From Actinomyces slackii (GTDB lineage Bacteria > Actinomycetota > Actinomycetes > Actinomycetales > Actinomycetaceae), in the NCBI RefSeq assembly GCF_900637295.1, contig NZ_LR134363.1, forward strand, positions 2,790,001-2,854,000: 64,000 nucleotides of DNA, given 5' to 3'. The notes under the pieces were generated by a model. It was not told where the DNA came from and ran no database searches. It saw only the letters and a list, made by a program, of their open reading frames with translations. The translations under genes and the position numbers were made by a program. Positions within the stretch are counted from its first letter, which is position 1. Every line of letters begins with the position of its first letter. Of the stretch, positions 24,514 through 37,743 are shown piece after piece.

Positions 24514-26022
24514 CTATCCGGGGGCGCCCAGGCCCCCACGGCCCACGAGGTCGATCTGGCGCATCTCCTCACGGCGCAGCCCCTCGACGCGGGCGATGAG
24601 CCGACTGGCCTCCTCGTTGGCCCTGACCAGCGGGTCGGGCAGGTCCACCGGGGTGGTGGGCGGGGAGTCCAGGCGCAGGCTCTCCCAGGTCACCGAGAAG
24701 TCGGCGCCCTTGTCCAGGCAGGCCTGGATGAAGGCCCCGCGCAGGGCCGCACGGGTGGCGGGCGGGCGGGTCATCGCCTCCTCGACCTCCCCTGGGGTGC
24801 ACAGCCTGGCCATCAGCCCCTGGGCCTCCAGGCGCCCGGCGAGCCCCAGGCCCGGGTGCAGGTCGTGGTAGGCCAGGTCCACCCGCGAGCGCAGGGCCGC
24901 CAGCTCGTCTCCCGCCAGCTCGGGGTGGCGCTCGCGGTGGGCGCGCATGAGCCGGCGCTTGATGGCCCAGTCGATCTCGGTGTCGATGCCACTGGCGTCC
25001 TGGCGGCGCAGGGCGGAGATGACGCGCGGGGCCAGGTCGGTCACGAGGTGCTCGGCGCCTGCCAGGAAGGGCCGACCGCCCTGGCGCTCCAGGAATCCGG
25101 CCAGTCGCTCGATGAAGGCCTCCTGGATGTCGATGGCGGTGGACCGCGCGCCGGTGGCGGTGGGCGCCGGGGCCTGCCCCCAGGCGCTGGTGCCCAGCGC
25201 CCCCAGGGTCTCCAGCGGGGAGTCCACGATGAGATCGGTGAAGTCCTCCCCCGCCTCCAGGGCATCGAGCAGCAGGAGGGTCAGGGCGGTGCGCAGGCCC
25301 GTGGTGGGCTCGGCGATGGTGGTATCGGCGCAGGTCACGTGGAGGCGGCGCAGGCGCGCGGCATCGGCATGGGGCTCATCCCGGGTGTTGATGAGGGCCC
25401 GCTGCCCGGTGGTGTCCGCTGAGGTCAGCGAGCCCAGGTGAGGGGCGCGCGGGGACAGGCCCCAGGCGGCGTCCTCCTCATCCCGCCCGGCTCCGGTCCC
25501 CTTCAGCACGGCCCCCGAGCCCACGAGGACGGGGCGGGTGACCAGGAAGGAGGTCAGGACCGGCAGCACCGCCTCCTCATCCAGGCTGCGGGGCACCGAG
25601 TAGCTCTCGTGGCAGCCGTAGGTGTGCCCGGCGGAGTCGGTGTTGTTGGCCAGCAGGTGGAGGCGGGCGGCCGTGCCGCGCGAGGCCAGGTCGGCCTCGG
25701 CGCCGGCCGCCATCTGGGCCAGGAGGCGCTTGCCGGCCTGGTCCTGGGCCACCAGGTCGCGCACCTGCTGGCACTCGGCGGTGGCGTACTCGGGGTGGGA
25801 TCCGATGTCGAGGTAGAGGCGCCCGCCGTTGGGCAGGAAGAGGTTGTTGGAGCGGTAGCCGGCCGGGCGGTGGCGGAACAGGAGGTTGGCGGCGGTCTCG
25901 ACGTCGGGCAGCTCGGAGGCGGCGCGCTCCCCCGCCCCGGGAGCGTGGATGGGGGCGGCCGGGGCGGCGAACACGGCGAACTCGGTCTCCAGCCCGGTGA
26001 CCCGATCCATCGGGGCGCTCAC
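24514..26022 (-). CDS. pafA: Pup-protein ligase
   Basis: It joins the C-terminal glutamate of Pup to lysines of target proteins, using ATP. The protein has 502 residues. It follows PafA, not Dop: GLETEF at the N-terminus, NGGRLYLDIGSHPEYATAEC, NNTDSAGHTYGCHE, INTRDEPHADA and DTEIDWAIKR are all present. The GTG at 26022 overlaps the pup stop (GTGA); ATG at 26010 is an alternative closer to the family start. It is last in arc-pup-pafA. The depupylase/deamidase Dop is not in the window although Pup needs it. Confidence 0.93.
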   Translation of the reverse strand: MSAPMDRVTGLETEFAVFAAPAAPIHAPGAGERAASELPDVETAANLLFRHRPAGYRSNNLFLPNGGRLYLDIGSHPEYATAECQQVRDLVAQDQAGKRLLAQMAAGAEADLASRGTAARLHLLANNTDSAGHTYGCHESYSVPRSLDEEAVLPVLTSFLVTRPVLVGSGAVLKGTGAGRDEEDAAWGLSPRAPHLGSLTSADTTGQRALINTRDEPHADAARLRRLHVTCADTTIAEPTTGLRTALTLLLLDALEAGEDFTDLIVDSPLETLGALGTSAWGQAPAPTATGARSTAIDIQEAFIERLAGFLERQGGRPFLAGAEHLVTDLAPRVISALRRQDASGIDTEIDWAIKRRLMRAHRERHPELAGDELAALRSRVDLAYHDLHPGLGLAGRLEAQGLMARLCTPGEVEEAMTRPPATRAALRGAFIQACLDKGADFSVTWESLRLDSPPTTPVDLPDPLVRANEEASRLIARVEGLRREEMRQIDLVGRGGLGAPG

Positions 26023-26207
26023 TGGCCGCCCTTCTGCACGAATCCGCGCACGAACTCCTGGGCGTCGACGGCCAGGACGTCGTCGATCATGTCCAGGACG
26101 GAGTCCAGTCCCTGGCCACGGGCGGGGCCGGCCGGGCCGGGCTCGGGGGCGTCGTCGGGGGCGGGGTCCTCGTAGCGGCTGCGGGAGGGCTGGGCGAACT
26201 CACTCAT
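26019..26207 (-). CDS. pup: Prokaryotic ubiquitin-like protein
   Basis: A 62-residue, mostly disordered modifier. The N-terminal half is Pro/Asp/Glu-rich, the C-terminal helix region is LDSVLDMIDDVLAVDAQEFV, and it ends GGQ. The terminal Gln must be deamidated to Glu by Dop before PafA can use it. AAGGAG lies 6 bases before the ATG. It lies between arc and pafA. Confidence 0.96.
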   Translation of the reverse strand: MSEFAQPSRSRYEDPAPDDAPEPGPAGPARGQGLDSVLDMIDDVLAVDAQEFVRGFVQKGGQ

Positions 26208-26319
26208 CGCTGTTCTCCTTGTCTGCGTTGTTGGCCTGTGGGTCCTGGGGAGTCTGCCCGGGGCGCCAGGCATCGAGCCTGGTCGCATCGCCCGGCGGGG
26301 TCAAGCCGGCGGGCAGGGC

Positions 26320-27999
26320 TCATGTCTCGCTCTGGGCGCGCTCGCGGTGAAGGACGCGCATGGACACCACGGGGGCGCCACGGCGCCCGGAGACGCGGGC
26401 CCAGTCATCGGGGTGGACGGTGGCCGGCAGACCCTCGTTCTCGGCGATCTCCTCGACGACGGCGCTCTGAAGGTGGTGGGGGGTCAGGCCGCGCCTGCCG
26501 GTGGTGACCAGGTCCTTGACGGCGGCCTTCTTGGCGCGGTCCACGATATTGGCGAGCATCGCCCCGGAGACCAGGTCGGCGACGTGAAGGACCTCGACCT
26601 GCCCGTCGGCGTGGGTGAGCTCGACCATCTCGGTGGCGCGCGAGCGGGTGTAGAGGCGGGTGACGACCTGATCGATGAGGCTGCGCACGGCGGCCTGCGC
26701 CCCACCGGCGGAGTGGAGGAGCTCCTCGTCCAGGGGGAGGTCGGCGGTCAGGTAGGTGGCCAGGATCTCGGCGGCGCCGGCGGCATCGGGGCGGCCGATG
26801 TGGATCTTGACGTCCAGGCGGCCGGGCCTGAGGATCGCCGGGTCGATCATGTCCTCGCGGTTGGTGGCGCCGATGACCACGACGTTGTCCAGCTCGTCGA
26901 CGCCGTCGATCTCCGCGAGCATCTGGGGCACCACGGTGGTCTCGACATCCGAGGAGCGGCCCGAGCCGCGGGTGCGGAACAGGGAGTCCATCTCGTCGAA
27001 GAAGACGACCACGGGCACCCCGGTGGCGGCCTTCTCCCGGGCGCGGGCGAAGATGACGCGGATGCGCCGCTCGGTCTCCCCCACGTACTTGTCCAGCAGC
27101 TGGGGGCCCTTGATGTTGAGGAAGTAGGCCTCGCCGCGGTCCTTGCCGCTCAGGGAGGCGGCCACCGCCTTGGCGATGAGGGTCTTGCCGCATCCGGGGG
27201 GGCCGTAGAGCAGGACGCCGCGCGGGGGCGTCAGGCGGTGCTCGCGGTAGAGGTCGGGGTGGAGGAAGGGCAGCTCGACGGCGTCGCGGATGAGCTCGAT
27301 CTGGCCGCCCAGGCCCCCGATGTCCTCGTAGGCGACGTCGGGGACCTCCTCCAGGACGAGCTCCTCGACCTCGGAGCGCACCACGGGGCGCAGCGCCATG
27401 CGCACGGCCAGGTCGGCCACCAGGGCGTCGCCCACTCGGGGGCGGCGATCGGTCAGGGCCCCGGACAGGGTGAGGACCTGCTCCTCGTCATGGCGGGCCA
27501 GGACCAGGACGGTGCCGTCGTCGTAGGTCTCCTTGACGGTGACCACCTCGCCGAAGCGGTGGGAGTCGATGCGCGTGGTGATGACCAGGTGCTCGTTGAG
27601 GACGACGTCGTCGCCCGGGTGCAGGGCGGAGGCCACCACGGCCGGGCCGATGCCCACCCGGTGGCGCCGCCCGGCGATGGAGACATCCGCGGTGCGCTCG
27701 GTGGCGTCCACCGCCAGCACGGTGGCGTGTGCCAGGGGCGGGGCCTGGAGGGCCTCGATGTCCTCATGGAGGGTGGCCAGCTCGGTGCGCGCCGCGCGCA
27801 GCGCATTGGCCAGGTGGGTGTTCTTGCGGCTGAGCACGCCGACATGCTCGGTCAGCTCGCGCAGGCGCTGATCGGGGCTCTGGGAGGAGGGCGGCGCGGT
27901 CGACTCCGTAGACATGGTCGACGTGGCAGGCACAGTCGCAGCGGGCCCGCCGTCATCAGCGTCCGGCGCTTGGACCGCCCCAGGGTGTTCCTCTGCCAT
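26320..27999 (-). CDS. arc: ARC/Mpa-type AAA ATPase lacking the proteasome-docking C-terminus
   Basis: This hexameric unfoldase recognises pupylated proteins. The protein has 559 residues. A coiled coil lies at ~45-85 and captures Pup. Two OB folds follow (~88-235), then one AAA domain with Walker A GPPGCGKT, Walker B VVFFDEMDS and arginine-finger region. The C-terminus reads HRERAQSET, without the GQYL (HbYX) motif that Mpa uses to open the 20S proteasome. No prcBA genes are present here. GGAGAAG precedes ATG 27999. In proteasome-less Corynebacterium, ARC remodels pupylated ferritin to release iron, a role worth considering next to iron transporters. Confidence 0.92.
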   Translation of the reverse strand: MAEEHPGAVQAPDADDGGPAATVPATSTMSTESTAPPSSQSPDQRLRELTEHVGVLSRKNTHLANALRAARTELATLHEDIEALQAPPLAHATVLAVDATERTADVSIAGRRHRVGIGPAVVASALHPGDDVVLNEHLVITTRIDSHRFGEVVTVKETYDDGTVLVLARHDEEQVLTLSGALTDRRPRVGDALVADLAVRMALRPVVRSEVEELVLEEVPDVAYEDIGGLGGQIELIRDAVELPFLHPDLYREHRLTPPRGVLLYGPPGCGKTLIAKAVAASLSGKDRGEAYFLNIKGPQLLDKYVGETERRIRVIFARAREKAATGVPVVVFFDEMDSLFRTRGSGRSSDVETTVVPQMLAEIDGVDELDNVVVIGATNREDMIDPAILRPGRLDVKIHIGRPDAAGAAEILATYLTADLPLDEELLHSAGGAQAAVRSLIDQVVTRLYTRSRATEMVELTHADGQVEVLHVADLVSGAMLANIVDRAKKAAVKDLVTTGRRGLTPHHLQSAVVEEIAENEGLPATVHPDDWARVSGRRGAPVVSMRVLHRERAQSET

Positions 28000-28245
28000 G
28001 CTTCTCCGTCCCCGGCGGATCGGCATCATCACCGGATCCGCGCTGATCGCTTCTAGGACAAGCGTACCAAAACAGCCCGTCACCAGTGCCACGACCGGGC
28101 ACGGCTGCCATCGCCGAACCCGTCCTGGTCTCCTCCCCGGCTGCGCGCCTGACGGCCGCGCGGCGCCTGCACGCGTGGATGTCTCCGAGATCCTCAAGAA
28201 CTAGGGAGTGAGTCGGCCCGCGCGCTCCGTGATCGTATGAGGCGC

Positions 28246-29991
28246 TCACCGTCCCGCCAGGCGCCAGCGCGCGGAATCCTCGGCAGCGCGCAGGAAATCC
28301 CGGTAGGGGCCGTCCACGCTGCCCAGCTCCTCGGGCCTCCCGCGCTGGGCCACCCGGGCGCCGTCCGGCCCCGGCTGGAGGAAGACCACCTCGTCGGCGC
28401 GTTGGATCGTCGAGATGCGGTGGGCGACCATCAGTACCGTGCGCCCGACCGACAGCTCGCGCACGACCTCGGCGATGGCCGACTCGTTCTCACCGTCCAG
28501 GGCGGAGGTGATCTCATCGAGCAGGAGGATCGGGGCGTCTTTGAGGAAGGCCCGGGCGATCGCGACCCGCTGGCGCTCCCCACCGGACAGGCTCGTGCCC
28601 GCAGGCCCCACACGGGTGTCCCACCCGTCGGGCAGTGACTCGATGACACCGTCCAGGCGGGCGCGCCGCGCGGCGCGGTCCAACTCCTCCTGCGTGGCCT
28701 GAGGCCTGGCTATGCGCAGGTTCTCCCGGATCGTGGTGTCGAAGAGGTAGACCTCCTGGAAGACCATGGAGGTCAGCCCCATGACGGCAGCCGTTCCCAG
28801 ATCTTCGACATCCGCGCCCCCAATGGTCACGCTTCCCGTGCCAGTGTCCCAGAAGCGGGCGACCAGGCGCAGCACCGTGGACTTCCCCGCGCCCGAGGGC
28901 CCCACGAGCGCCGTGACCCGTCCGGCCGGTGCGGTCAGGCTCACGCCGTCGAGCACTGGACGACCCTCGTCGTAGGAGAAGTCCACGTCCCGCAGCTCGA
29001 TGCCGCTGCCATGGGGCGAGGCCTCGCACCCGGGCGCGGGATCGGGCAGCGGCTGCGCGGACAGGATCTCGTTGACGGCCCGCAGGGCGACGATGGCATT
29101 GTCCGCCTCGGTGGAGTACATGGCGGCCTTGGTCAGCGGCAGGAGCATGCGCGAGGTGACGGCCATGACCGCCAGGTAGGCGATGACATCGAGGCGGTGC
29201 CCGCTCACCGCGGCGAGCCCCACCGCCATGATGAGGGCGAAGGAGGCATTGGCCACGAGGTGGAAGGCCTGCGCGGGCCTGCCCTTGACGCGCAGTCCCT
29301 CGGCAGTGGCGTCGGCATCGGCCGCCAGCGCCTCGCGCACCGGCTGCCAACCCGACTCTGCCAGCCCCGAGGCGCGCAGCACCGGCTGGAGGCGGGCGAA
29401 CTCGATGAGCCTGCCCGCGGCGACGGCGGCCGTGGCATCCTCGATCTCATTGGCGCGCGTCGTTGCCGTCCTCATGCGCCGCCAGATGATGTAAAGGGGC
29501 ACGATGGTCAGCGCCATGATGAGGGCTATCTGCCACTCCACGGCGGCGACGACGCCGATCATGACCAGCGGCACGATGAAGGCATTGCACAGGTTGGGGA
29601 TGACCAGCGAGGTCACGTGGGAGAGCGTGTTGATCTCCCTGGAGGTCGCGTTGACCACGGCGGCCTGGCGTGCCGCGGAGAACCAGCCCAGGGGGAGCGC
29701 CAGGACGTGCTCGGCGATGCGGCTGATCATGGTGTCGCAGATCTCGTAGACGCTGACCCGGTAGGAGCGGGTCTGGGCGACCATGTCGACGGCCATCGCG
29801 CACAGGCCCGCCACGACGAGCACCACCATCCACGCGGTGGTTGACTCAGAGCGGGAGTAGAGCGCGCGCAGAAAGGGGATGAGGGCGCCAAGGGCCAGTC
29901 CCTGAAGGACGGCCGAGGCGATGAACCAGGCGGTGATCGCCTTCATCTCGCGCGGGCTGACCAGTCGCAGCAGCAGGCTCCACATGCTCAT
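28246..29991 (-). CDS. ABC half-transporter (exporter fold), probable siderophore import subunit B
   Basis: A 581-residue protein: six membrane segments in the first ~310 residues, then an ABC ATPase with Walker A GPSGAGKST, signature LSGGERQR and Walker B LLLDEITSALD. It overlaps the preceding half-transporter gene (ATGA), so they form a heterodimer. Sequence alone says exporter fold. The pairing of two such subunits with an ECF module behind an iron box recalls YbtP/YbtQ and IrtA/IrtB, exporter-fold proteins that import ferric siderophores. Multidrug export is the alternative. Confidence 0.85.
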   Translation of the reverse strand: MSMWSLLLRLVSPREMKAITAWFIASAVLQGLALGALIPFLRALYSRSESTTAWMVVLVVAGLCAMAVDMVAQTRSYRVSVYEICDTMISRIAEHVLALPLGWFSAARQAAVVNATSREINTLSHVTSLVIPNLCNAFIVPLVMIGVVAAVEWQIALIMALTIVPLYIIWRRMRTATTRANEIEDATAAVAAGRLIEFARLQPVLRASGLAESGWQPVREALAADADATAEGLRVKGRPAQAFHLVANASFALIMAVGLAAVSGHRLDVIAYLAVMAVTSRMLLPLTKAAMYSTEADNAIVALRAVNEILSAQPLPDPAPGCEASPHGSGIELRDVDFSYDEGRPVLDGVSLTAPAGRVTALVGPSGAGKSTVLRLVARFWDTGTGSVTIGGADVEDLGTAAVMGLTSMVFQEVYLFDTTIRENLRIARPQATQEELDRAARRARLDGVIESLPDGWDTRVGPAGTSLSGGERQRVAIARAFLKDAPILLLDEITSALDGENESAIAEVVRELSVGRTVLMVAHRISTIQRADEVVFLQPGPDGARVAQRGRPEELGSVDGPYRDFLRAAEDSARWRLAGR

Positions 29992-31889
29992 TCACCATCC
30001 TTGTCGCCGCGGGCCGGCCAGGGTGCGGACTCGTTGTCCTCATCCTCTCCGCGCCCTTCACTCTGGGTGCGCCACAGGCGCGCGTAGCGCCCGTTGGCCG
30101 CCATCAGCTGCTCGTGCCTGCCGCGCTCGACGATCCGGCCGCGGTCGAGAACGAGGATCTGGTCGACGTCGCGGATGGTGGACAGGCGGTGGGCGATGAT
30201 GAGGACGGTGCGCCCGGCTGCCAAGCGGGACAGGGCCAGGTGGACGTCGCGCTCACAGGCCGGGTCGGCCTGGGCGGTGGCCTCGTCGAGGACGAGAATG
30301 GGGGCGTCGCGCAGATAGGCGCGGGCCAGGGCGATCCGCTGGCGCTCCCCGCCGGACAGGTGCCCGCCCTTGTCGCCGATGACGGTGTCGTAGCCCTGGG
30401 CCAGGCGCATGATGCGGTCGTGGATGCAGGCCGCGCGGGCGGCCTCCTCCACCTCGGCCCGGCTCGCCCCGGGGCGCCCCAGGGCGATGTTGTCGTGGAT
30501 GGAGTCGTGGGTCAGATCAACATCCTGCAGGACGATCGCCACCTGCGATCCCAGCCAGGACAGGCGGGTGTCACGCACGTCGATACCGGAGACGAGGACG
30601 TGCCCGTCGTCGACGTCGTGGAAGCGGGCGACGAGACGGGCCAGGGTGGATTTGCCCCCGCCCGAGGGGCCGACCAGCGCGGTGACGGTCCCGGGCTCGG
30701 CGATGAAGGACACCCCGTGCAGCACAGGGGCGCCCTGGGTGTAGGAGAAGACGGCGTCGCGGACCTCGACACGTCCGGGCTGGGGTCCCTCCCCCTGGGC
30801 ATGCCGGCCCTGCGCCATGGGGTCCTCCTGGAGCAGGGATGCCGTGGACTGCGCGGCTTGGCGGGACTCGTAGAGGTGCTGCATAAGACTCACCAGGGCG
30901 ATCGCTCCCTCGGGCAGGCCGGGCGCCAGGAGGAAGAAGGGGAGCGTCGCGGACAGCGGTGTCCATCCCTGAGAGGTGAACAGCACGCTCAGGGGAGCCA
31001 GGGTCGCCACGACGGTCGCAGGCCGCAGGAGCGCGGTCATGAGGCTCATGGCCCGACCGGATGCCCGGACCCATTCGAAGGAGATCTCGGAGAACTGGTC
31101 CCGGGCGGTGTTGAAGCGGGTGCGGGTGGAGTCCGCCGCTTGAAATCCCTTGATCTCCTTGATGCCCTCGAGCATCTCAACGGTTGCGGCGGCGAGCCCC
31201 GTCTGAGCGGCGCCGAAGCGGTGGGTGATGTCGCTCATGCCCCGCATCCCGAGCATGGCGCACCCCGCCAGGGCGATTCCCCACAGCCCCAGCAGGGCGA
31301 GCGCGAGACGCCAGTCCACCCAGACCAGGTAGACGGCTCCGGCGAGGACGGAGACAACGGCGTTGGTGGCGTCACCGGGCAGGTGAGCCACCATGGTGTG
31401 GATGGCGGAGGTGTCGTCGCAGACCATCTTGCGGACGGCGCCGCGGGGGACGAGTGCCACGCGCCCCAGCGGCATGCCGGACAGGGCGGCGACGATCCTG
31501 ACTCGCAGCCCGTGGCGCAGTCGCACCTCAGCGGCGTGGGTGATGCCCAGGCCCGCGAGGTAGAGGACCTGAGAGGCGGCCAGGCTGGCAACCGCGACGG
31601 CCGCCCATGCCCCGGTGCTCCCGGCCCAGCCGGTGGCGGTGGACTCCCCGAGCCAGATGGTGGCCATGCGGTGCAGGGCGACGAAGGGAATGATGAAGAC
31701 GATCGCCCCGATGGCGGTGAGGATGGCCGAGACGATCATGGCTCCGCGCGCCGGGGAGATGAGGTCGAGGACGGTGATCCCCCCACTGGCGGTGGCGCCG
31801 GCCGAGGCTCCGGGGCCACCGGGCGGACCGGTGCCGGTGCTCCCGGTGGTCGGGGTGGTCGGGGTGGTCGCGATTCGGGCCGATGTCAT
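29988..31889 (-). CDS. ABC half-transporter (exporter fold), probable siderophore import subunit A
   Basis: A 633-residue protein with a low-complexity Thr/Pro/Gly-rich N-terminus (~35 residues). A six-helix membrane domain follows, then an ATPase domain with Walker A GPSGGGKST, signature LSGGERQR, Walker B LVLDEATAQAD and switch His in IIAHRLST. GAAGGACGCAGCAC precedes the ATG. It lies 72 bp after the double EcfA gene and overlaps its partner. There is no FAD-binding siderophore reductase domain as in IrtA, so iron release would need another enzyme. It ends with an acidic tail. Confidence 0.85.
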   Translation of the reverse strand: MTSARIATTPTTPTTGSTGTGPPGGPGASAGATASGGITVLDLISPARGAMIVSAILTAIGAIVFIIPFVALHRMATIWLGESTATGWAGSTGAWAAVAVASLAASQVLYLAGLGITHAAEVRLRHGLRVRIVAALSGMPLGRVALVPRGAVRKMVCDDTSAIHTMVAHLPGDATNAVVSVLAGAVYLVWVDWRLALALLGLWGIALAGCAMLGMRGMSDITHRFGAAQTGLAAATVEMLEGIKEIKGFQAADSTRTRFNTARDQFSEISFEWVRASGRAMSLMTALLRPATVVATLAPLSVLFTSQGWTPLSATLPFFLLAPGLPEGAIALVSLMQHLYESRQAAQSTASLLQEDPMAQGRHAQGEGPQPGRVEVRDAVFSYTQGAPVLHGVSFIAEPGTVTALVGPSGGGKSTLARLVARFHDVDDGHVLVSGIDVRDTRLSWLGSQVAIVLQDVDLTHDSIHDNIALGRPGASRAEVEEAARAACIHDRIMRLAQGYDTVIGDKGGHLSGGERQRIALARAYLRDAPILVLDEATAQADPACERDVHLALSRLAAGRTVLIIAHRLSTIRDVDQILVLDRGRIVERGRHEQLMAANGRYARLWRTQSEGRGEDEDNESAPWPARGDKDGE

Positions 31890-31961
31890 GTGCTGCGTCC
31901 TTCGAGGATTGAGCGTCGGGTGAGCCGATGCGGATGAGCGCGGTGAATGGGCAACTGGGTC

Positions 31962-33365
31962 TCACAGGAGTCGGATGATGCGGTCGGCGCACTCGGCGAG
32001 GAACTCGTCATCGTGGCTGACCACGATGACGACCCGCCCCTGAGCGGCCAGAGCGCGCAGTTCGGTGGCGATCGACAGGAGGTGGCGGTGGTCCACTCCG
32101 GAGGTCGGCTCATCGAGGATGATGACGCGCGCGTCCTGGTCGATGGCGGTGGCGATGACGAGCCGCTGCTTCTGCCCTCCCGACAGGGACAACGGGTGGC
32201 GGTCGGCCAGGGCGGCCAGGCCGAGGCGCTGGAGCCGGTGGGCGCTGGCCTCGTCGGCGACGGACTCGGCGAAGAGCTGGCGGTGGACGTCCTGCATGAC
32301 CAGGAAGGCCTGACCGCGGCCCAGGGGGCGGCCGTCCAGTTCAATGCGGGCCCGGCGCTGACAGCGCTGGAGCCGGCAGATGGCGCGCACCAGGGTGGTC
32401 TTGCCGATGCCGTTGGCGCCGATGATCCCGGTGACCCGGCCCTCTGGGAAGTCCAGATGCTCCAGGTCGAGGATGCGGCGCCCGCCGCGCTCGACCACCA
32501 TGTCGCTGATGACCAGGCCGCGGCGCTCCTTGGGCCCCCGCGCGCGGCTTGCCCCCGCCGCACGAACCGCGGGGACGTCCACGACCTCCAGGGGACTGCC
32601 ACAGCAGGTCCTTCGCGGGAGCTCGGGCCTGGTCAGGGAGCGCAGGCCCAGGCGGCGGCGCTCGGCGTCACCCATGGAGAACAGCTCGGCTCCGCTCATT
32701 CGTCGCACGATCCTGCCGTCGTCCATGACAACGGCCTGGTCGACCAGGCCGCCCAGGAAGTGCACGCGATGCTCGGCGACGATGATGGTGCGCTTGAGCG
32801 CCTTGAGCCGGGCGATGACGGACCGGATGCCCTCGATGCCCTCGGGATCCAGATTGGAGGTGGGCTCGTCGAGGAGGATGACTGGGGCCTGCTGAGTCAG
32901 GGCCTGGGCGCAGGCGACCTTCTGCAGCTGGCCCCCGGACAGGCCTCGCAGGTCGCGGTCCGCCAGATCCTCCAGCCCCAGTTCCTTCAGTGCGCCCAGG
33001 CGCCGCCTGATGATCTCCTCCGGAGGGACCCCGTAGTTCTGGGCGGCGAAGGCGAGCTCGTCGGCGACAGTCGTGGTGAAGAACTGGGTCGCGGGGTTCT
33101 GGAAGACTGTGGCGGTGAAGCGCCCCATCTCGCCGAGGGGGATCCGGGCGACCTCCCGGCCACCGATGAGGACCTCCCCGGTGCGCTCGCCATGGTGGAA
33201 GTGCGGGATGAGGCCGTTGACAAGGCGCACGAGTGTGGTCTTCCCGGAGCCGGAGGCCCCGCACACAAGCGTGAGCCGACCTGCGGGGGGTTTGAGGCTC
33301 ACGCGGTCCAGCACCTGCTGCCCGGTGGGAGCGGTGTAGCTCACGTCCCTGATGCTCACGTCCAT
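31962..33365 (-). CDS. ECF transporter double ATPase (EcfA-EcfA')
   Basis: A 467-residue protein with two ABC ATPase domains. The first has Walker A GASGSGKTT at 36-44, signature LSGGQLQK and Walker B VILLDEPTSNLD. The second has Walker A GANGIGKTT near 317, signature LSGGQKQR and Walker B VIILDEPTSGVD. The linker (~230-290) contains a CC pair. The start at 33365 lies within the last 10 bp of the EcfT gene. Together with EcfT and the S component it forms the energised uptake complex of the iron-box operon. Confidence 0.9.
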   Translation of the reverse strand: MDVSIRDVSYTAPTGQQVLDRVSLKPPAGRLTLVCGASGSGKTTLVRLVNGLIPHFHHGERTGEVLIGGREVARIPLGEMGRFTATVFQNPATQFFTTTVADELAFAAQNYGVPPEEIIRRRLGALKELGLEDLADRDLRGLSGGQLQKVACAQALTQQAPVILLDEPTSNLDPEGIEGIRSVIARLKALKRTIIVAEHRVHFLGGLVDQAVVMDDGRIVRRMSGAELFSMGDAERRRLGLRSLTRPELPRRTCCGSPLEVVDVPAVRAAGASRARGPKERRGLVISDMVVERGGRRILDLEHLDFPEGRVTGIIGANGIGKTTLVRAICRLQRCQRRARIELDGRPLGRGQAFLVMQDVHRQLFAESVADEASAHRLQRLGLAALADRHPLSLSGGQKQRLVIATAIDQDARVIILDEPTSGVDHRHLLSIATELRALAAQGRVVIVVSHDDEFLAECADRIIRLL

Positions 33366-34105
33366 GGAACCGCGTTCTGGGCGAGGAGGGCCCCGGTCAG
33401 GGCAAGGCAGATGGCCGCCACGACGGCGTCGGGCACGCCCCATCGCAGGCGCACGACGCTCGTGGGGCGGTCGCTGACCCCCAGTCCACGGATCAGCGCG
33501 GCGGCGGACAGCTCATCGGCGGTGCGCGCCGAGGCCGCCAGCACCGGGACCACGAGCTTCTCGATGGCGGCCAGGGGGTGGCGGCACCAGTAGGAGCCGG
33601 TGTAGCCGCGCAGGGCCATGGCCTCGGCCACGCCGCCGATCTCCTCGAGTGCCACCGGCAGGAACCGGAAGATGACGGACAGCGGGATGATGAGGACTCT
33701 GGGCAGGCGCGCAGCGTGCATGGCGGCCACGAGCTCGGTGACGCGGGTCGTGGAGACGAACCACGCCCCGGCGCTCAGCGCGATGGTGAAGCGCAGGACC
33801 CAGAAGCCGATGATGCCCAGCGCGACGCTGGGCCCGCCGGGCCACCACCGGATCAGAGCCATGGCCAGGACGCTGGCCCCGAGGACGACGGTGTAGATGG
33901 CGGCGGCGCGCAGCCGCAGGTCATGGACCAGGGCGAGGCCCACGATCGCGGCTGCGACCCACAGGAGCCATCCGCTCGAGCGCCCCATGACGATGATGTT
34001 GATGACGATCATGAGCAGGAGCCGGGAACGGGGATCCGCCCCGCAGCGCACGCTGGCGCGGCGCGGCAGGGCGGGGTGCGCTGCCTGCGGCGCATGCGTG
34101 CTCAC
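33356..34105 (-). CDS. ECF transporter transmembrane subunit EcfT
   Basis: A 249-residue protein with about five hydrophobic segments and the EcfT coupling-helix pattern (ARTADELSAAALIRGLG, and AMALRGYTGSYW earlier). It begins with GTG at 34105, overlapping the S-component stop by 4 bp (GTGA); the long upstream open frame is a shadow of that gene. It couples the S component to the ATPases. Confidence 0.87.
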   Translation of the reverse strand: MSTHAPQAAHPALPRRASVRCGADPRSRLLLMIVINIIVMGRSSGWLLWVAAAIVGLALVHDLRLRAAAIYTVVLGASVLAMALIRWWPGGPSVALGIIGFWVLRFTIALSAGAWFVSTTRVTELVAAMHAARLPRVLIIPLSVIFRFLPVALEEIGGVAEAMALRGYTGSYWCRHPLAAIEKLVVPVLAASARTADELSAAALIRGLGVSDRPTSVVRLRWGVPDAVVAAICLALTGALLAQNAVPWT

Positions 34106-34710
34106 GCCACACCGGCTCGCTCGAAGTGGCGGTGCAGGATTCGCATGCCCACAAGCGCCGAGCCGTAGGCGAGTGCGAGGGTCATCAGGCCCCAGGCCGC
34201 GACGACCGGTGCGGAGAACACCGCGGCGAAGGTGCCTGCGTACTGGGCGCCCATCTGCGCCTCGATATCCGCCAGGTAGGCCTGCGAGTTGAGGAATATC
34301 GGCAGGATGGGAGCGATCCCCCACAGCGAGAACAGCGCATACCCAAGGGCGTTGGCGGTGGCGCGCCTGTACCCTCCAGCGCGGGTGATGAGATCGGCGA
34401 CAACACCGAGAGCGGCCGCGACGAGAACGGTCGCCCAGTAGTGGCCGGTGCCGACCATGAGCAGGCCGACCACGACCCCCATGATCGTGTAGGCCCACAT
34501 GGCCCGGGTCTTGGCGACCATGAGCATGCACACGATGCCGTTGAGAACCACGGTGACGACCCCACCGATCAGCATCATCGCAGGATGGAAGATCCCCAGC
34601 ATGCCGCCGGCGAAGAAGAACACGAAGTACAGGGCGGTGAAGACGCCGACGGTGATGAGGTGGCGAGGCGCCGAGATGCCGCGCGACGCTGCGCTGGCGG
34701 TGGGTTCCAT
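34102..34710 (-). CDS. ECF transporter S component, MptD / Trep_Strep family
   Basis: A 202-residue protein with about six membrane segments (TALYFVFFFAGGMLGIFHPAM; VVVGLLMVGTGHYWATVLVAA; and others). It matches the Trep_Strep/MptD-type S component often encoded beside EcfT, double EcfA and exporter-fold ABC pairs in Gram-positive bacteria. First gene of a five-gene operon, 54 bp downstream of an iron box. The proposed substrate is a ferric siderophore or other iron chelate; that is inference from the box and gene order. GGAAGAGG lies upstream of the ATG. Confidence 0.82.
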   Translation of the reverse strand: MEPTASAASRGISAPRHLITVGVFTALYFVFFFAGGMLGIFHPAMMLIGGVVTVVLNGIVCMLMVAKTRAMWAYTIMGVVVGLLMVGTGHYWATVLVAAALGVVADLITRAGGYRRATANALGYALFSLWGIAPILPIFLNSQAYLADIEAQMGAQYAGTFAAVFSAPVVAAWGLMTLALAYGSALVGMRILHRHFERAGVA

Positions 34711-34763
34711 GATCTGCCTCTTCCAGGCTCCCTGCGGGCGGAGCGCGCCGTCCGCAACATGAC

Positions 34764-34782
34764 TTAGGCATGCCTAATCTAA
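34764..34782 (-). promoter_or_regulatory. DtxR/IdeR-type iron box upstream of the five-gene transporter operon
   Basis: TTAGGCATGCCTAATCTAA has the perfect core TTAGGCATGCCTAA and matches the 19-bp consensus TTAGGTTAGSCTAACCTAA at most positions. It is the second such box in the window. It sits between the divergent valS and the transporter operon, with a -10-like TTAGAT overlapping on the minus strand. Confidence 0.83.
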
Positions 34783-34980: not shown

Positions 34981-37743
34981 ATGTCGCAATCCCAGAACTC
35001 CCCTCGCATCCTGCCCTCCGAGCTCCACAGCCCGCGCGTGCCGGCCAAGGTCAGCGCCGACGGCCTGGAGCCGACCTGGGGCCAGCGCTGGGAGGAGGAG
35101 GGCACCTACGCCTTCGACCGCAGCGCCGAGCGCAGCGAGGTCTTCTCCATCGACACCCCGCCGCCCACCGCCTCGGGCTCCCTGCACGTGGGGCATGTCT
35201 TCTCCTACACCCACACCGACACCGCCGCCCGCTTCCAGCGCATGCGCGGCAAGGCGGTCTTCTACCCCATGGGCTGGGATGACAACGGCCTGCCCACCGA
35301 GAGGCGGGTGCAGAACTACTTCGGGGTGCGATGCGACCCCTCCCTGCCCTACGACCCGGACTTCACTCCCCCCCACACCGGTGGGGAGGGCAAGTCCATC
35401 AAGGCCAAGGACCAGGTCCCGGTCTCCCGGCGCAACTTCGTCGAGCTGTGCGAGCGCCTGACCGTGGAGGACGAGAAGCAGTTCGAGGCGCTGTGGCGGC
35501 GCCTGGGGCTGAGCGTGGACTGGTCGCACACCTACCAGACCATCGGGCCGCGCGCCCGCAAGGTGGCCCAGACCGCCTTCCTGCGCAACCTGGCCCGCGG
35601 GGAGGCCTACCAGGCCCAGGCCCCGGGCCTGTGGGATGTGACCTTCCAGACCGCGGTGGCCCAGGCCGAGCTGGAGTCGCGCGAGTACCCCGGCTTCTAC
35701 CACCGCCTGGCCTTCCACGCCCTGGACGCCGAGGCCGCCGCGCGCGCCGCGGCGGCCGGCGCCGAGATCGAGAACGGGGTGGATGTGTGCATCGAGACCA
35801 CCCGCCCCGAGCTGCTGGCCGCCTGCGTGGCCCTGGTGGCCCATCCCGACGACGAGCGCTACCAGCCGCTGTTCGGCACCACGGCCGCCTCCCCGGTCTT
35901 CGGCGTGGAGGTCCCCATCCTGGCCCACCCGGCGGCCGAGCGGGACAAGGGCGCCGGCATCGCCATGTGCTGCACCTTCGGCGACACCACGGATATCGAC
36001 TGGTGGCGCGACCTGGAGCTGCCCCTGCGCGCCATCCTGCGCAAGGACGGACGCATCGAGGTCGAGACCCCGGAGTGGATCACCAGTGACGAGGGCCGCA
36101 GGGCCTATGAGGCCATGGCCGGCAAGACCGCCTTCTCAGCGCGCGAGGCCGTGGTGGGGGCGCTGGCCGCCAGCGGGGAGATGCGCGGCGAGCCGGTCAA
36201 GACCGTGCGTCAGACGAACTTCTTCGAGAAGGGCGACAAGCCCCTGGAGATCGTCACCTCCCGCCAGTGGTACATCCGCAACGGCGGCACCCCCTGGACC
36301 AACCCGGCCTCCGGTGAGGATCTGGCCTCCGAGCTGCTGAAGCGCGGCGAGGAGCTGGCCTTCCAGCCCGACTTCATGCGCGTGCGCTACGAGAACTGGG
36401 TCAAGGGCCTCAACAATGACTGGCTGATCTCCCGCCAGCGCTTCTTCGGCGTGCCCTTCCCCCTGTGGTACCCCGTTGGCCAGGACGGCGAGGTGGACTA
36501 CGACCACCCCATCGTCCCGCCGGAGTCGGAGCTGCCGGTGGACCCCTCCTCCGATGTCCCCCAGGGCTACAGCGAGGACCAGCGCGGCGTGCCCGGCGGG
36601 TTCGTGGGCGAGCTGGACATCATGGACACCTGGGCCACCTCCTCCCTGTCCCCCCAGCTGGTCTCGGGGTGGCTGACCGATGAGGACCTGTTCTCCCGCG
36701 TCTACCCCATGGATCTGCGCCCCCAGGGCCAGGACATCATCCGCACCTGGCTGTTCTCCTCGGTGGTGCGCGCCAACCTGGAGTTCGGGGCGCTGCCGTG
36801 GGCCAATGCCGGGATCTCGGGCTGGATCCTGGACCCGGACCGCAAGAAGATGTCGAAGTCCAAGGGCAATGTGGTCACGCCCATGAGCCTGCTGGAGAGG
36901 TTCGGCGCCGATGCGGTGCGCTACTGGGCCGCCTCGGCCCGCCTGGGCATGGACGCGGCCTTCGAGGAGTCCCAGATCAAGATCGGGCGGCGCCTGGCCA
37001 TCAAGATCCTCAACGCCTCGAAGTTCGCGCTGTCCATGGGGATCCCCTGGGATGCCGATGAGCAGACCCGGGCCGCTGCCCCGGCGCCCAGCCTGGACGC
37101 CGCGGCCGTCAGCGAGCCCATTGACCGCGCGGTGCTGGCCGCCCTGGCAGAGGTGGTCGAGTCGGCCACGACCGCCCTGGAGGAGTTCGGGCACGCCCGG
37201 GCCCTGGAGGTGGCGGAGTCCTTCTTCTGGACCTTCTGCGATGACTACATCGAGCTGGTCAAGGACCGGGCCACTGATGAGGGCGGCACGCATGAGGCCG
37301 GTGCCGTGGCCTCGGCGCGCACCACCCTGGCGATCGCGGTGGACACCTTCCTGCGGCTCTTCGCGCCCTTCCTGCCCTTCGCCACCGAGGAGGTGTGGAG
37401 CTGGTACCGCAGCGGCTCGGTGCACCGGGCGGCGTGGCCGGCCGCCTCCGGCCTGCGCGAGGCCGCCGGCGACGCCGATGCGGCCCTGGTGGAGCAGGCA
37501 GGCGCGGCCCTGGCCGCCCTGCGCAGGGTGAAGTCGGAGGCCAAGGTCAGCCAGAAGACCCCGATCCTCCAGGTGGCCCTGGAGGTGGCGCCCGGATACG
37601 AGACCGCGGTGGAGACGGTGCGCGAGGACCTGCTGCAGGCCGCCAAGGTCACCGGCGGCTTCTCGGTCGAGGTTCTCGCCGAGCCCGAGGCCGCCGTGTC
37701 GGTCAGCGCCGTCGAGCTCGGCCAGGCCCCCGCCAAGAACTGA
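34981..37743 (+). CDS. valS: Valyl-tRNA synthetase
   Basis: This class I synthetase charges tRNA-Val and edits Thr mischarging. The protein has 920 residues. The HIGH motif is HVGH at 69-72 and KMSKS lies at 623-627 (RKKMSKSKGNV). A C-terminal arm follows. No ribosome site precedes the ATG; CAGAAT (34968-34973) lies seven bases upstream and can serve as -10, so the mRNA is probably leaderless. It is divergent from the iron transporter operon and ends at a strong hairpin. Confidence 0.95.
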   Translation: MSQSQNSPRILPSELHSPRVPAKVSADGLEPTWGQRWEEEGTYAFDRSAERSEVFSIDTPPPTASGSLHVGHVFSYTHTDTAARFQRMRGKAVFYPMGWDDNGLPTERRVQNYFGVRCDPSLPYDPDFTPPHTGGEGKSIKAKDQVPVSRRNFVELCERLTVEDEKQFEALWRRLGLSVDWSHTYQTIGPRARKVAQTAFLRNLARGEAYQAQAPGLWDVTFQTAVAQAELESREYPGFYHRLAFHALDAEAAARAAAAGAEIENGVDVCIETTRPELLAACVALVAHPDDERYQPLFGTTAASPVFGVEVPILAHPAAERDKGAGIAMCCTFGDTTDIDWWRDLELPLRAILRKDGRIEVETPEWITSDEGRRAYEAMAGKTAFSAREAVVGALAASGEMRGEPVKTVRQTNFFEKGDKPLEIVTSRQWYIRNGGTPWTNPASGEDLASELLKRGEELAFQPDFMRVRYENWVKGLNNDWLISRQRFFGVPFPLWYPVGQDGEVDYDHPIVPPESELPVDPSSDVPQGYSEDQRGVPGGFVGELDIMDTWATSSLSPQLVSGWLTDEDLFSRVYPMDLRPQGQDIIRTWLFSSVVRANLEFGALPWANAGISGWILDPDRKKMSKSKGNVVTPMSLLERFGADAVRYWAASARLGMDAAFEESQIKIGRRLAIKILNASKFALSMGIPWDADEQTRAAAPAPSLDAAAVSEPIDRAVLAALAEVVESATTALEEFGHARALEVAESFFWTFCDDYIELVKDRATDEGGTHEAGAVASARTTLAIAVDTFLRLFAPFLPFATEEVWSWYRSGSVHRAAWPAASGLREAAGDADAALVEQAGAALAALRRVKSEAKVSQKTPILQVALEVAPGYETAVETVREDLLQAAKVTGGFSVEVLAEPEAAVSVSAVELGQAPAKN

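Follow-up and report, generated by a model that had tools for sequence, protein, structure and literature searches.

The locus described here raises the question of whether an operon that places an energy-coupling factor (ECF) transporter beside a pair of exporter-fold ATP-binding cassette (ABC) half-transporters encodes one iron importer or two, and which molecule is carried. It lies in a stretch of 64,000 nt of the Actinomyces slackii chromosome (NZ_LR134363.1:2,790,001-2,854,000; hereafter the window, whose positions are used below unless kb are given), from a complete genome of 3.22 Mb in a single contig. Five minus-strand genes, here called S, T, A, P and Q, extend from 34710 to 28246 and are preceded by a candidate iron box at 34764-34782 (Table 1). 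The initial annotation, made from the DNA letters, regarded them as a single hybrid importer for xenosiderophores. We favour a somewhat different reading, which we hold to be probable though by no means certain: under the control of DtxR, the operon would take up foreign ferric siderophores, probably of the aryl-thiazoline kind, by means of two co-regulated importers working in parallel. Sequence comparison supplies the gene families, the conservation of the box, the kinship of P and Q, a histidine triad, a separate reductase gene of the SID type, the separability of the two modules and the absence of two biosynthesis families; DtxR binding, transport direction and substrate are inferred. No paper describing this operon in Actinomyces was found in the open-licence PMC literature.

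An ECF module and a half-transporter pair in one operon

Open reading frame (ORF) coordinates and family searches bore out the five same-strand genes behind the box and the families first named for them. The genes are packed even more tightly than the four in overlapping pairs noted earlier, as all five overlap a neighbour (S/T by 4 bp, T/A by 10 bp, P/Q by 4 bp), with a gap of 72 bp between A and P. The MptD-type assignment of S held as well: it scored 176 bits against PF09605 (1.1e-51; cut-off 28.7) and 104.6 bits against TIGR02185, "MptD family putative ECF transporter S component" (cut-off 76.45). For A, the best NCBIfam families were the ECF ATPases TIGR04520 and TIGR04521, both below cut-off, while TIGR01166 (cbiO) was above it. 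An S component, EcfT and EcfA are thus encoded together, as in ECF transporters with a dedicated module. Among named S proteins, the closest one comes from A. timonensis (68%). A sequence-based PDB search with the S alignment returned zero matches, and a plain Foldseek search with the S model found nothing at E<=0.001.

Table 1. Features of the S-T-A-P-Q operon and their positions in the window.
Feature	Position	Strand	Evidence
S: MptD-family ECF substrate-capture component, 202 aa	34102..34710	-	PF09605, TIGR02185
T: EcfT transmembrane coupling protein, 249 aa, GTG start overlapping S stop	33356..34105	-	PF02361 CbiQ 2.3e-15
A: fused double EcfA ATPase, 467 aa	31962..33365	-	two ABC_tran stretches
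P: IrtA/YbtP-type half-transporter without SID, 633 aa	29988..31889	-	ABC_membrane + ABC_tran
Q: IrtB/YbtQ-type half-transporter, 581 aa	28246..29991	-	ABC_membrane + ABC_tran
Candidate DtxR/IdeR-type iron box TTAGGCATGCCTAATCTAA, 15/19 to consensus	34764..34782	-	conserved upstream of orthologous operons

Conservation of the iron box

The box ends 53 bp before the start codon of S and was scored against a string that we take to be the DtxR consensus. Within the A. slackii genome, the motif count is weak to modest evidence, because TTAGGNNNNSCTAANCTWA with up to 2 mismatches gave 7 matches (6 places including the operon box), the same number as a reversed-pattern control. Without mismatches, TTAGGNNNNSCTAANCTWA occurs at a single place in the 3.22 Mb, which is the operon box, and the looser palindrome TWAGGNNNNCCTWA was found at 7 places in the whole genome, versus 3 for its control. 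Eleven other box-like places were present. The neighbours of seven were checked, and three of these adjoin iron genes, namely a binding-protein/FecCD operon, an FTR1 permease and a siderophore-interacting protein (SIP) gene; the remaining four adjoin genes for a pullulanase, a methyltransferase, a sulfite/nitrite reductase and a family-less protein.

Conservation across relatives, as judged from upstream regions, provides strong evidence for the box. At least 14 of the 19 consensus positions were matched in 36 of 75 upstream regions, drawn from sets that overlap (10/25 of S-first relatives, 4/8 of P-first operons, 5/5 of those starting with a second ECF module and 17/37 of the named loci). In a selection of 36 operons, picked after the 75 regions had been scored, the proportion rose to 29/36; 100 permuted consensus strings gave no more than 2/36 (mean 0.2), and of the control gene starts in the same loci 3/249 reached that score. 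This selection does not include Bifidobacterium loci, the more divergent MptD loci (L037-L051, L163, L178), those P loci that lie at contig ends (L243, L245), or second copies of a genome present in two sets. Iron-box control, as first proposed, is supported by these figures.

The genome encodes a DtxR-type regulator at ~1,061.6 kb, which scores 265 bits against NF053665, just below the curated cut-off of 290; a second regulator is closer to MntR. With a conserved box upstream and such a protein in the same genome, the operon can be assigned to a DtxR regulon, and DtxR would probably bind at the box. A simple promoter scan detected no promoter-like site at the box, no terminator was found, and an Rfam scan of 7 loci yielded neither a riboswitch nor any other RNA.

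P and Q resemble IrtAB and YbtPQ

P and Q are adjacent, and each combines a membrane domain with an ATPase carrying Walker A, signature and Walker B motifs. When membrane domains alone were searched against PDB, all 10 matches of P were to IrtA and YbtP, and 16 of the 18 matches of Q were to IrtB, YbtQ, YbtP or IrtA, the other two being CydD. Entries 6tej and 6p6i, whose titles are partly generic, are here presumed to hold IrtA and YbtP, respectively, as chain A. Among single half-transporters, full-length searches ranked IrtA and YbtP first for P, and IrtB and YbtQ first for Q. In the membrane-domain searches, IrtAB, the mycobacterial importer of ferric mycobactin, was the best match among single half-transporters, and YbtPQ, the yersiniabactin importer, which likewise consists of two half-transporters without SID, the second best.

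In a tree of half-transporters, P-type rows formed one group with an IrtA-like, SID-fused protein of a congener (L246, 862 aa; SH-like approximate likelihood ratio test, SH-aLRT, 95), Q-type rows fell into two groups of 14 and 10 rows, and E. coli MsbA, MdlAB and CydCD remained outside. The tree was a quick one, with long branches for the E. coli exporters and no bootstrap, and row L175_P, a 14-residue frame, was dropped. Half-transporters of Bacillota, which are 25-36% identical, were assigned by adjacency, membrane-domain coverage and position in the tree.

A further point of comparison is a set of histidines. The metal ligands of IrtA are described as His356, His402 and His407, the third position being Asp in YbtP (PMC10246721). 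In the alignment of PDB matches, His118, His164 and His169 of P coincide with all three, so that P has His where YbtP has Asp. Positions 1 and 3 were His in all 24 P-type rows, and position 2 was His in 16 and Glu in 8, while the triad occurred in 0/24 Q-type rows and 0/5 E. coli exporters. His118, Gly150 and His169 were the sole invariant residues before position 383 in a 26-row alignment of P. On this kinship, P-Q is an IrtAB/YbtPQ-type pair, in agreement with the first description, and the histidine metal site of IrtA would extend well outside mycobacteria.

That P-Q is instead an ordinary drug or heme exporter which merely shares the operon appears highly improbable. Its fold is the general exporter fold, and neither P nor Q reached the cut-off of any NCBIfam family among the best 25 of 182 and 188, respectively. 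However, the specificity of the membrane-domain matches and the histidine triad speak against this explanation, as does the iron box found directly before P in four congeners.

Two separable modules

The order box-S-T-A-P-Q was observed in the window and in A. timonensis (L111). In other species, for example A. oris, A. naeslundii, A. johnsonii and A. oricola, the order is box-S-T-A-Y-Z-P-Q; here Y belongs to PF09819, and Z joins a double ATPase and an EcfT-type domain in one protein. Four congener loci read box-Y-Z-P-Q (L235, L237, L239, L241), and in four congeners the box is followed by P-Q with S-T-A absent from the operon (L236, L238, L242, L244). S-T-A likewise occurs without P-Q in relatives. 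In front of three further P-Q loci no box was found, two of the three being near contig ends.

Of 72 named loci, 67 contained S, T and A together. A same-strand half-transporter pair adjoined the module in 37 of these (both genes within 4 kb in 30, the first gene within 4 kb in 7), and 30, Bifidobacterium among them, had no adjoining pair. Because S-T-A and P-Q are each found on their own, in both cases behind an iron box, they are best viewed as separable modules, and two co-regulated transporters fit better than one machine. The single hybrid importer first proposed is therefore not retained. As a hybrid machine or an obligate relay, the ECF module and P-Q would act on the same molecule in sequence; we regard this as quite improbable in view of the 30 unpaired loci and of P-Q standing alone behind its own box, although the 37 pairings span Actinomycetota and Bacillota, both modules occur on a small Corynebacterium plasmid, and shared descent of the actinomycetotal cassettes was not rejected. 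Grouping the window set with the other Actinomycetota sets gave p 0.72 in the approximately unbiased (AU) test, and the idea that P-Q of the window joined S-T-A independently of those cassettes was found to be unsupported.

The plasmid is a mobilizable one of 20.7 kb which carries the full S-T-A-P-Q set with an iron box (L256, 6047-12391), and three Corynebacterium records of this same length are listed. In total, 241 plasmid records held kin of P; 4 were opened, one of them lacking annotation.

The Y-Z pair represents a second ECF module within iron-box operons of several Actinomyces (L027 9912-13140; L235, L237, L239, L241). We take the PF09819-type protein to be YkoE and the pair to be YkoE/YkoDC-like. 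The Rfam scan found no riboswitch there, and the substrate of Y-Z may not be thiamine-related.

A detached SID-type reductase

The N-terminal domain of IrtA, which binds flavin adenine dinucleotide (FAD), is reported to reduce siderophore iron (PMC10246721). P does not contain this reductase domain (SID), only ~40 residues preceding its membrane domain. A separate protein of 252 residues, encoded at ~770.5-771.2 kb, scored 120.5 bits to the IrtA domain and at most 44.8 bits to stand-alone siderophore-interacting proteins. A palindromic iron-like core lies within 100 bp upstream of its gene, and likewise in 13 of 15 orthologues, against a background of 3/510 windows. Across 36 congeners, counted irrespective of kinship, P and the SID-type gene were both present in 12, P alone in 4, the SID-type gene alone in 2 and neither in 18; one of the two genomes with the SID-type gene alone retains fragments of P. 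A second SIP gene adjoins the FecCD operon.

Because P has no fused SID and a SID-type protein is encoded separately, P-Q is, by domain content, a split form and not a canonical IrtAB. The parallel with IrtAB, drawn earlier, thus stands for the kinship of the pair, but it overlooked that the reductase domain is encoded elsewhere in the genome. The presence of an ECF module in the operon, and siderophore synthesis genes not being found, further set the window apart from IrtAB.

Two variants were observed among congeners. In one genome (G024; L248, 6682-7025), P is reduced to fragments behind an intact Y-Z pair and the SID-type gene is kept. Another (G011; L246, 3134-7440) has an 862-codon gene for a SID-IrtA-like fusion together with an IrtB-like gene, besides a split P-Q and SID.

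Siderophore synthesis and the probable substrate

Genome-wide searches with positive controls detected neither a condensation domain of non-ribosomal peptide synthetases (NRPS) nor an IucA/IucC domain of NRPS-independent siderophore (NIS) synthetases in the window genome. The absence of siderophore biosynthesis genes, first noted for the operon, is thereby borne out genome-wide for these two enzyme families. Because no NRPS or NIS siderophore synthetase is apparent in the genome, foreign siderophores are a likely substrate.

As for their kind, the neighbours of orthologous genes are suggestive. In Actinomyces sp. ZJ308, whose S is 58% identical, the orthologous S-T-A genes are followed, on the same strand, by a thiazoline-type NRPS cluster with a thiazolinyl imide reductase (TIGR01761, 239.8 bits; cut-off 188.8), a methyltransferase-bearing NRPS, an aryl-AMP ligase and a second NRPS. 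An Irp3-like reductase and NRPS genes also adjoin S-T-A in Anaerococcus tetradius and Butyrivibrio hungatei. Kin of P-Q adjoin a salicylate synthase and NRPS genes on a Streptomyces plasmid, and siderophore uptake genes in Azospirillum. The likeliest substrates would be aryl-thiazoline siderophores that neighbours produce, of the same kind as yersiniabactin and equibactin. MptD, an ECF family of unknown substrate, would in this way be linked with the uptake of iron and, through several relatives, with thiazoline siderophore genes. If this is true, several Actinomyces use siderophores made by others, a point of relevance to the competition for iron in mixed communities.

Heme or another porphyrin would be a different substrate, S-T-A then acting like LhaSTA of Staphylococcus lugdunensis. 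By its published description, LhaSTA is an iron-regulated S-T-A set for iron acquisition, and it shows that iron-regulated heme ECF transporters exist (PMC7299338). The conserved His90 and His195 of S (40/61 and 49/61 rows) could bind metal. Nevertheless, siderophore NRPS genes lie next to the relatives, and an IrtAB-type pair is part of the operon; we consider heme import improbable. LhaSTA differs also in having a Fur box instead of a DtxR box, and the account in PMC7299338, as far as available, does not report a half-transporter pair with it.

In ZJ308, the NRPS siderophore-like cluster lies on contig 78 (~7-26 kb; L258, L051) between two different MptD-type S-T-A sets, all on one strand. 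Divergent MptD-type S genes directly adjoin an NRPS of ~2,580 residues in three congeners (L049, L050, L051).

A model of uptake and the direction of P-Q

According to the proposed model, DtxR would sit on the box when iron is plentiful, keeping transcription off; iron starvation would lift the repression and S-T-A-P-Q would be made. Consistent with the general mechanisms of ECF and ABC transport, S would capture an iron chelate from outside, topple and release it inward as T and A hydrolyse ATP, while P-Q, an exporter-fold heterodimer like IrtAB, would import the same or a similar chelate. The separate SID-type protein would reduce the iron and so free it from the chelate.

A close published parallel is the equibactin locus (eqbA-N) of Streptococcus equi, which is described as having DtxR-type control and a three-gene importer, eqbHIJ, followed by the pair eqbKL, kin of YbtPQ/IrtAB (PMC3672683); unlike it, the window has no NRPS genes. 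Deletion of eqbHIJ abolished equibactin-dependent iron import, whereas deletion of eqbKL did not, and EqbKL was suggested to export (PMC3672683). The equibactin comparison made at the outset concerned a pair joined to ECF-like genes and left out the dispensability and suggested export function of EqbKL. Because S. equi needed only the ECF-type genes for import and not the half-transporters, P-Q might instead carry empty siderophore outward; import is favoured and efflux is the competing option. Import is preferred because four congeners possess box-P-Q alone and because of the kinship with two proven importers.

If P-Q worked outward, the operon would form a loop of import and recycling, in which the chelate enters through S-T-A, has its iron released by the SID-type reductase and, as empty siderophore, leaves through P-Q for another round. 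The exporter fold of P-Q and the EqbKL genetics, with EqbHIJ sufficing for import, agree with such a loop, and a scarce foreign carrier would be worth reusing for an organism that makes none itself. On the other hand, the two nearest relatives of known structure, IrtAB and YbtPQ, transport inward (PMC10246721, PMC10967856), and the operon of the four box-P-Q congeners contains no gene through which the carrier would have entered. We consider the loop rather unlikely. An explicit form of it, in which the ECF module pirates a foreign aryl-thiazoline siderophore, the detached reductase strips the iron and P-Q returns the empty carrier, seems to us unlikely as well. If true, a few stolen carrier molecules would serve many rounds, the histidine metal site would be a family trait, and transport direction would differ between members of the group. 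Natural strains with a single module are suited to asking in which direction exporter-fold siderophore transporters work.

Several observations weigh against uptake by two importers, in addition to the EqbKL genetics. In full-length searches, P-glycoprotein-type exporters, which contain each domain twice, had the top total score for P and Q. None of 12 Bifidobacterium loci reached 14/19 for the box, a failure that is itself informative. The 19-mer score of the SID-type gene was at background level in most orthologues, and its co-occurrence with P may partly reflect kinship. Finally, NRPS genes were nearby in only 8 of 116 loci searched, they were absent from the genome in 10 of 16 congeners with P, and P and NRPS presence were not significantly associated across congeners (Fisher p 0.10). 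The xenosiderophore proposal of the initial annotation therefore gains from the thiazoline-type NRPS genes beside the same modules in relatives, but these neighbours are few. We nonetheless retain uptake by two co-regulated importers as the preferred explanation.

Other candidates and neighbouring genes

The Bifidobacterium genes sifABCDE (Lanigan 2017) were considered as a relative of the operon and set aside, as SifB and SifC are given as FtsX-like permeases (PMC5449479). Divergent from the operon lies an ORF of 920 residues (34981-37743), which, judging from the ORF, is valyl-tRNA synthetase-like. On the other side, pupylation genes adjoin the operon (24514-28197), comprising a protein with the proteasomal-ATPase domains and a Pup-ligase-like ORF, likewise judged from the ORFs. 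The same gene kinds, Pup_ligase twice and a proteasomal ATPase, were observed upstream of S in one further locus (L031).

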